DNA of 28,588 nucleotides, from positions 1-28,588 of the IMG/VR virus record IMGVR_UViG_3300008120_000779; one strand, written 5' to 3'. Below, one piece after another: positions 11,099-19,402 of this stretch. A program made the position numbers and the translations under genes. The notes beneath the pieces were generated by a model. The model was not told where the DNA came from. It searched no databases and was given only the letters and a program-made list of their open reading frames with translations. Numbering within the stretch: position 1 is the stretch's first letter; each line of letters opens with the position of its first letter. Source of the stretch: a virus.

Positions 11099-11536
<438 letters not shown>

Positions 11537-13143: not shown

Positions 13144-13160
13144 AGGGCAAAGTTTGCCCT
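13144..13160. repeat. 17-bp near-perfect inverted repeat
   Basis: AGGGCAAA (13144-13151), one G, then TTTGCCCT (13153-13160) form an uninterrupted 8-bp inverted repeat. The one-base spacer suits a dimeric repressor operator better than an RNA hairpin, though GGGCA/TGCCC could also fold. It lies about 65 bp upstream of the tRNA-like element and 145 bp before the next gene. Confidence 0.4.
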
Positions 13161-13224
13161 ATACCTATACTCACCTTGATGTCGAAACAAAAGGTATTGC
13201 TTAAATATTTTTAATACTATTCAA

Positions 13225-13274
13225 GGGAAAGCGCAAGGCGCATGGTGTTAAGGGTTCGAGTCCCTACTTTCCCC
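13225..13274 (+). ncRNA. Miniature tRNA-like element lacking D and anticodon arms
   Basis: GGGAAAG (13225-13231) pairs perfectly with CTTTCCC (13267-13273) as a 7-bp acceptor stem. A T arm GGG-TTCGAGT-CCC (13252-13264) has the invariant TTCRANN loop. Between them only about 20 nt remain instead of about 41; they form a tiny hairpin GCGC-AAG-GCGC (13231-13241) and an A/T/G linker. The total is about 50 nt, followed by C and then TA rather than CCA. It could be a degenerate tRNA, a minihelix recognised by RNase P, or a tRNA-derived attachment site. Confidence 0.5.
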
Positions 13275-13278
13275 TATT

Positions 13279-13309
13279 TATTAACCACTAAAACAAAACA
13301 AACATGAAA
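13279..13309 (+). repeat. 31-nt direct repeat carrying a translation leader, copy 1
   Basis: A 31-nt stretch from TATTAACCACTAAAAC to ATGAAA is repeated without change at 13508-13538. Each copy ends in the start codon of a small gene, so the unit is stop codon, leader and start codon in one. Shorter variants precede many rightward genes. Confidence 0.75.
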
Positions 13310-13513
13310 TACTTATTTCACTTAGACGCATCAATGGTAAAATGTTTAGAAGATAATAATCTAAACGTAAAAGTAATTGAACGGGACACAACAGATGGTC
13401 TATTTCTTGTTAAGGTATTAATAGAAAATCATTACGATGCCTCTAACTTATTTTGGGCAGGTGCGAAATGGGCAGAACAGCATCATGATGTAAAAGAAAA
13501 AATAAACTATTAA
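13304..13513 (+). CDS. Small protein of unknown function (69 aa)
   Basis: ATG 13304 is set by the conserved leader ACTAAAACAAAACAAAC. The 69-residue product starts MKYLFHLDASMVKCLEDNNL and contains KVLIENHYDASNLFWAGAKW with a His-rich end (EQHHDVKEK). It looks like a small soluble alpha/beta protein with no signal peptide. Its stop codon is part of the second copy of the 31-nt repeat, so it forms a cassette with the lipoprotein gene that follows. No family is recognised. Confidence 0.65.
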   Translation: MKYLFHLDASMVKCLEDNNLNVKVIERDTTDGLFLVKVLIENHYDASNLFWAGAKWAEQHHDVKEKINY

Positions 13514-13538
13514 CCACTAAAACAAAACAAACATGAAA
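13508..13538 (+). repeat. 31-nt direct repeat carrying a translation leader, copy 2
   Basis: Identical to the copy at 13279-13309. It spans the end of the 69-aa gene and the start codon of the following lipoprotein gene. Recombination between the copies would delete the 69-aa gene cleanly in frame. Confidence 0.75.
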
Positions 13539-19150: not shown

Positions 19151-19192
19151 AAGCAAATATAATAATTTTTAATAATCACTAAAACAAAACAA

Positions 19193-19402
19193 ATGAACAC
19201 TAAACAATTTGACGTTATCTCTCCTGATGGATTCTCCATCCACCCATCCGATGTTTATCCAACTAAAAAGAAAGCCATTAAGGCTTTTGAAGATTGGAAG
19301 AAACGATACGAAATACAAGGGTATTACAGTTCCATGAATTATGGCAGAATACCACTTGATGAACTGCATAACTATATAGAAATCAAATCAATTAACAACT
19401 AA
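19193..19402 (+). CDS. Small protein of unknown function (69 aa)
   Basis: ATG 19193 after the leader TCACTAAAACAAAACAA. The product opens MNTKQFDVISPDGFSIHPSD and continues with a helix TKKKAIKAFEDWKKRYEIQG. The layout (beta hairpin, Lys-rich helix with W-KR-E-QGYYS) is common to short proteins of Bacteroidetes phages and plasmids, none of known function. It begins the transcription unit on the far side of the inverted gene. Confidence 0.65.
   Translation: MNTKQFDVISPDGFSIHPSDVYPTKKKAIKAFEDWKKRYEIQGYYSSMNYGRIPLDELHNYIEIKSINN

Follow-up and report, generated by a model that had tools for sequence, protein, structure and literature searches.

We find that positions 13225-13274 of the window (the whole 28,588-nt stretch of viral DNA analyzed here) are a tRNA-like RNA element, the structure of which is demonstrated and for which decoding is impossible; as an earlier note on this DNA had concluded, the element is tRNA-like but has no anticodon arm. 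The parts of the element and its immediate flanks, all on the + strand, are:

13165..13195, +, conserved upstream block CTATACTCACCTTGATGTCGAAACAAAAGGT / CTATACTCRCCYTGATGTYRAAACAAARGG, with compensating arms ACCTT/AAGGT in the window
13212..13217, +, TAATAC, a -10-like hexamer 7 nt before G1 (putative promoter)
13225..13231, +, acceptor stem 5' strand GGGAAAG, 7/7 complementary to 13267-13273
13232..13249, +, joining segment of 18 nt, CGCAAGGCGCATGGTGTT, with no D stem and no anticodon arm
13250..13266, +, T arm AAGGG-TTCGAGT-CCCTA, 4 bp plus an A-A mismatch
13255-13261, +, T loop TTCGAGT, which fits TTCRANY
13267..13273, +, acceptor stem 3' strand CTTTCCC, paired with 13225-13231
13274, +, C at the equivalent of N73, followed by UAU; CCA is not encoded
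13275..13303, +, A/U-rich unstructured leader of 29 nt, ending at the first start codon
13304..13513, +, first ORF of the rightward operon, 69 aa, without a family match

The acceptor stem is perfect over its seven base pairs, as the earlier note stated, and the T loop is indeed canonical, but the T stem has four pairs plus the A-A mismatch, which lies at its acceptor-side end. The interval between the acceptor and T stems is 18 nt, rather than the 20 nt first counted, and cannot hold an anticodon arm with an anticodon. No conserved stem equivalent to a D stem was found within the joiner when the clade was compared, and the joiner of the window contains GG dinucleotides that could serve as the D-loop GG. 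A GCGC-AAG-GCGC mini-hairpin that had been proposed for this interval does appear in the minimum free energy fold of the single sequence, but it uses the seventh G of the acceptor and is not conserved; it is broken in relatives (for example, GGGC-AAG-GCGC in L038) and was rejected as a part of the element. Pairing between the joiner and the downstream leader (AGTGAA/TTCACT in L037) was also rejected, as it fails, by eye, in the window and in other members.

In the window, a fragment of a virus record, portal and terminase genes run leftward and a replication operon (ERF, exonuclease, DnaA-C-like and primase/helicase genes) runs rightward. Based on the terminase, the nearest named phages, at about 29% identity or less, are Flavobacterium elemo phages, Caudoviricetes MW202828 and Cellulophaga phages such as phi13:2. 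A long non-coding stretch ends with the element, which directly precedes the short gene that opens the rightward operon; no relatives of the 69-aa protein encoded by this gene were found, and the first gene of the operon is not the same across relatives. At a similar place upstream of the element, relatives have TAATAC, TAATAA, TATAAA or TATACT; since a sigma-70 promoter scan gave no match, TAATAC is a putative promoter only.

A single occurrence of this structure in the window is suggestive, and it is conservation that settles the matter, because the chance expectation is about 7% per window and the fold is unremarkable. Based on first-order Markov shuffles of the window, 0.07 matches per window are expected to a descriptor with the full 7-bp acceptor, and 0.47 to one with an acceptor of ≥6 bp, while the folding z-score of the element is -0.73, a stability that is not unusual.

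To assess conservation, we examined a clade of 12 records, one of them the window, assembled from terminase relatives (79-89% identity) and a scan for the conserved upstream block. According to the earlier note, its reading would fail if the segment were absent from relatives in which the flanks are conserved; instead, 9 of the 12 records, including the window, carry the element, as one copy each (50-70 bits) and in synteny. Seven distinct element sequences exist among these nine. Their acceptors are either GGGAAAG/CTTTCCC or GGGACAG/CTGTCCC, with pair 5 changed from A-U to C-G in L037 and L039 and pair 7 mismatched in L036 and L039, and their T stems differ with compensation (CCAGG/CCTGG, CCGGG/CCCGG, CGAGG/CCTCG and AAGGG/CCCTA), such that two T-stem pairs covary. 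Overall, 95.2% of the alignment cells are paired, both sides have changed in nine cells at three pairs, and the covariation score is 0.325, compared to 0.093 ± 0.040 in shuffles, none of which (0/500) reached 0.325. If the partners are slid by 1-3 columns, pairing falls to 39-68%. The joiner part of this alignment was placed by hand and padded with N, which leaves the paired columns unaffected.

The features that are held constant in the clade are those of the top half of a tRNA. All seven distinct sequences have the 7+5 stack geometry (with one mismatch in four of the seven) and the T loop TTCGA[TGC]T, which fits TTCRANY, while the joiner varies in sequence and in length (17-27 nt) and retains GG in every member. 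Likewise, in 7/7 members C73 is followed by UAU, with no CCA, position -1 is A, and the first ATG is 27-32 nt from the element. We conclude that the element is a real RNA because relatives hold the shape while the letters change. Stability is a different matter: the z-scores of five of the seven members (window, L007, L014, L037 and L038) are -0.2 to -0.8, which is not unusually stable. No such element was found in the distant relatives (Elemovirus, MW202828 and part of Cellulophaga phi13:2), no exact match to the strict pattern with C73 was found in cellular genomes, and no terminase relatives were found among the cellular genome contigs searched.

Standard searches do not report the element. 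ARAGORN found no tRNA in the window, the Rfam 15 covariance models gave no match at E≤1 at the element, the tRNA model RF00005 had no match in the window, and neither ARAGORN nor Rfam detected the combination of tRNA-like domain and tag reading frame that defines a tmRNA. Such elements are missed by tRNA finders because the finders need an anticodon. RF00005 does score two of the clade types of the element, with E values of 7e-5 and about 1e-3.

In two records, the site of the element is occupied by something else. In L006 (3821-3868, -) and L009 (4471-4551, -), a three-way junction unrelated to the element fills precisely this position, flanked by the shared upstream block on one side and the shared leader on the other. 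Its outer stem is GGGCAA/TTGCCC; of its two hairpins, one is closed by the pairing TCGG/CCGA, and the other carries stem changes that compensate between L006 and L009 under an identical AACTTTGC loop; the folding z-scores are -3.5 and -2.8, respectively. Comparison of the terminases places both records alongside carriers of the tRNA-like form, L009 with L010 (95% identity) and L006 in a group with L004 and L014; thus, the two forms have been exchanged within the clade. Either both folds do one job, or each recruits its own partner. Since L006 and L009 have a junction that is not tRNA-like, the site may function without any tRNA enzyme. In both loci, the junction is followed by a small gene encoding a membrane-like peptide.

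The earlier note had likened the element to the minihelix substrates of RNase P, and its acceptor/T-arm geometry does match such substrates. It is plausible, although somewhat short of probable, that the element acts in cis, as a mimic of tRNA within the 5' mRNA leader of the rightward operon, and that RNase P and/or RNase Z of the host cut the transcript there; we infer such cutting as the most economical reading. The coaxial acceptor and T stems (7+5 positions), the T loop and the GG joiner would present an elbow and an acceptor end to host enzymes, and enzymes that recognize these two features would be offered no anticodon arm. Transcription would start near G1 (13225), and the transcript would be cut by RNase P at or near G1 (13225) and/or by RNase Z after C73 (13274). 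After cutting, the first gene would retain a fixed, unstructured leader of 29 nt, which might benefit mRNA stability or translation. If, however, transcription starts exactly at G1, nothing is left for RNase P to remove.

RNase P measures the stack of the T stem and acceptor from the elbow (PMC4919913; PMC10731613) and favors RCCA at the 3' end (PMC10731613); its known non-tRNA substrates include phage M3 RNA, the phage-derived C4 RNA and T4 gene 32 mRNA (PMC11143913). The element has the 12-position coaxial acceptor/T stack with a T loop, and does not have the 3' RCCA, with C73-UAU in all members. RCCA helps RNase P, but is not absolutely required. RNase Z cleaves CCA-less tRNA ends after position 73, and in the element the T arm and acceptor are present and N73 is not followed by CCA. 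Against the cleavage model stand the lack of RCCA in the clade, the C at 73 and the A at -1 instead of the favored U, and the exchange with the junction in L006 and L009 calls for caution with this model.

If the element were an uncut 5'-terminal structure, such that the mRNA begins at GGG and the fold shields it from 5'-end-dependent decay, any stable fold would work. The position of GGG 7 nt after the TAATAC-like hexamer fits this idea, as does the different, stable junction that L006 and L009 have in place of the element, but stability alone would not account for a TTCRANY loop and a 7+5 geometry that never vary, and in five of the seven clade members the stability is ordinary for the base composition; we give this reading a minor chance. 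We judge it unlikely that the leader instead binds a protein that recognizes the elbow or acceptor and thereby controls translation of the first genes, with the CCA enzyme, EF-Tu or a phage RNA-binding protein as imagined partners. Mimicry of tRNA by leaders is a known principle, and the spacing to the start codon is constrained in all members, but the first downstream gene varies among relatives and no candidate RNA-binding protein was identified. Retention of the acceptor and elbow with removal of the anticodon target would also suit a free small RNA, cut from the leader to act in trans as a decoy for a tRNA-targeting defence or for tRNA enzymes. In L004 and L005 the element is directly followed by an A/T-rich, terminator-like hairpin and T6 (ATATCTG-ACAAAA-CAGATAT, then TTTTTT), but this hairpin is missing in the other members and falls below the threshold of the terminator scan. 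The element also has C73 and no CCA, and any stable product is hypothetical; we consider the decoy distinctly unlikely.

Two further explanations are addressed directly by the conservation data. Mobile elements commonly leave tRNA fragments (PMC9897764), and the earlier note had suggested that the segment might be the scar of integration into a tRNA gene. Synteny, covariation and the failure to find a tyrosine integrase make a scar, or a decayed tRNA gene, highly improbable: compensatory changes involve both acceptor strands, the element is present as one copy in one place in 9/12 records, no full tRNA is found at the element site in any relative, and PF00589 had no match in the 7 clade records searched. 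A chance match, for which the 0.07 occurrences expected per window and the z-score of the window element might speak, is contradicted by syntenic conservation with covariation and can be practically dismissed.

To determine if similar elements are found beyond this clade, we scanned viral contigs for acceptors of the form GGGANAN with a short joiner, a scan that is not exhaustive. This recovered the clade as well as unrelated phages with full 12-bp stacks. In the KVP40 group of Vibrio T4-like phages (L101 853-898, L103, L104 and L106), an independent element that lacks the anticodon arm lies between KVP40.0307 and.0306, 29 nt before the ATG, and the locus is held by 51 Vibrio phage records. 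The KVP40 acceptor is GGGAGAT..GTCTCCC; the R10Z variant has a T-stem G-C changed to A-U, the D482 variant has GGTGAGA..CCTCGCC with 6/7 pairs, and in the distant member D479 the entire acceptor is swapped by compensation (GAGGGAG..CTCCCTC). The variants that were read have U at -1 and lack CCA, and their joiner retains TGG. The KVP40-group and window elements share the 7+5 stack, the TTCRANY loop, a short joiner with GG, the lack of CCA and a distance of about 29 nt to the ATG, but the KVP40-group element is inside an operon, has a 10-14-nt joiner with TGGT and U at -1, and belongs to phages unrelated to that of the window. We rejected a universal U at -1 as a signature of RNase P, as U is found in the KVP40 group, A in the clade and a mixture in the other phages pooled. 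It is conceivable, although doubtful, that unrelated phage groups independently evolved such anticodon-less mimics as mRNA punctuation, that is, as RNase P/RNase Z sites ~29 nt before a start codon; equally doubtful is the analogy by which this punctuation would be the counterpart of tRNA punctuation in mitochondrial transcripts.

Further anticodon-less forms came from a scan with two more acceptor classes, again not exhaustive, and a full D arm is present in part of them. In L170, L172, L176, L077, L069, L151, L061 and L081, from various phages, the acceptor and T stems are perfect or nearly so and the anticodon arm is missing; some of these sequences have a D arm. In L172, where a tmRNA is present as well, the 60-nt form reaches 47 bits with the tRNA model. 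Some pattern matches are ordinary tRNAs or neighbors in tRNA arrays: L054, L066, L067, L073, L085, L092 and L093 are, by eye, ordinary tRNAs in which the D loop mimics the acceptor, and L056 and L068 are tRNA-Ser.

We rate the window element as belonging with tRNA-like cis elements and RNase P substrates. Like the minimal or natural non-tRNA substrates of RNase P named above, it stacks an acceptor on a T arm with a T loop, is part of a phage transcript and needs no anticodon, but it is a predicted substrate without RCCA, is conserved and covarying, and keeps a fixed distance to the start codon. It shares lost arms and a kept acceptor with armless or D-/anticodon-reduced mitochondrial tRNAs, which still decode, whereas the element has no anticodon and retains its T arm. 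The 3' tRNA-like structures of plant viruses are also viral RNAs that mimic tRNA, but the element is in the 5' leader of a DNA phage and has two helices and no pseudoknot. The tRNA-like domain of tmRNA similarly has an acceptor and T arm without an anticodon arm, but the element has no mRNA-like part, is only 50-60 nt and has no CCA. No published description of such phage-leader elements was found in the open-licence literature, which is not proof of absence. Elements at a similar start-codon distance exist in two unrelated phage groups, and further anticodon-less sequences turned up in the viral-contig pattern scans. Should RNase P or RNase Z cleave them, they would illustrate a simple way in which phages shape their mRNAs through host tRNA maturation.

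Other conserved features surround the element. The upstream block is present in all members (9/9 sequences aligned), and its arms compensate (CCCT/AGGG, CCAT/ATGG and CCTT/AAGG) around a conserved loop of 12-13 nt, which makes it a candidate hairpin or protein-binding dyad. An operator-like palindrome, GGGCAAAGTTTGCCC, lies at 13145-13159 of the window; it is also present in L010, and a compensating GGGTAAAGTTTACCC is found in L038. The leader CTATTAACCACTAAAACAAAACAAACATGA recurs near-identically before two other genes of the window (13508-13538 and 19168-19193), in both cases without a tRNA-like element.

A non-coding stretch of ~300 nt, probably a large structured RNA that has not been described before, lies 1.7 kb upstream of the element (window 11195-11500, +) and shows 74-90% conservation across the clade. 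Its consensus fold has 78 pairs, 38 of them with compensatory changes, and it had no match in Rfam, the phage collection or the named phages. A model of its second domain finds 11/12 clade records, with 135-154 bits in the loci, and none of the 4 distant phages tested. In contig IMGVR_UViG_3300008107_000072 (L037/L012), which is 65.3 kb long, the element and the large RNA are at opposite ends, and joining these ends in the arrangement of the window would place them 1.9 kb apart; thus, the contig may represent an almost complete genome that is circularly permuted. Type II tRNA-like genes are found elsewhere in some of the clade genomes, at G010:C1:41695-41784 (35.9 bits) and at L036 11560-11670, the latter possibly, by eye, a tRNA-Tyr with a GTA anticodon.
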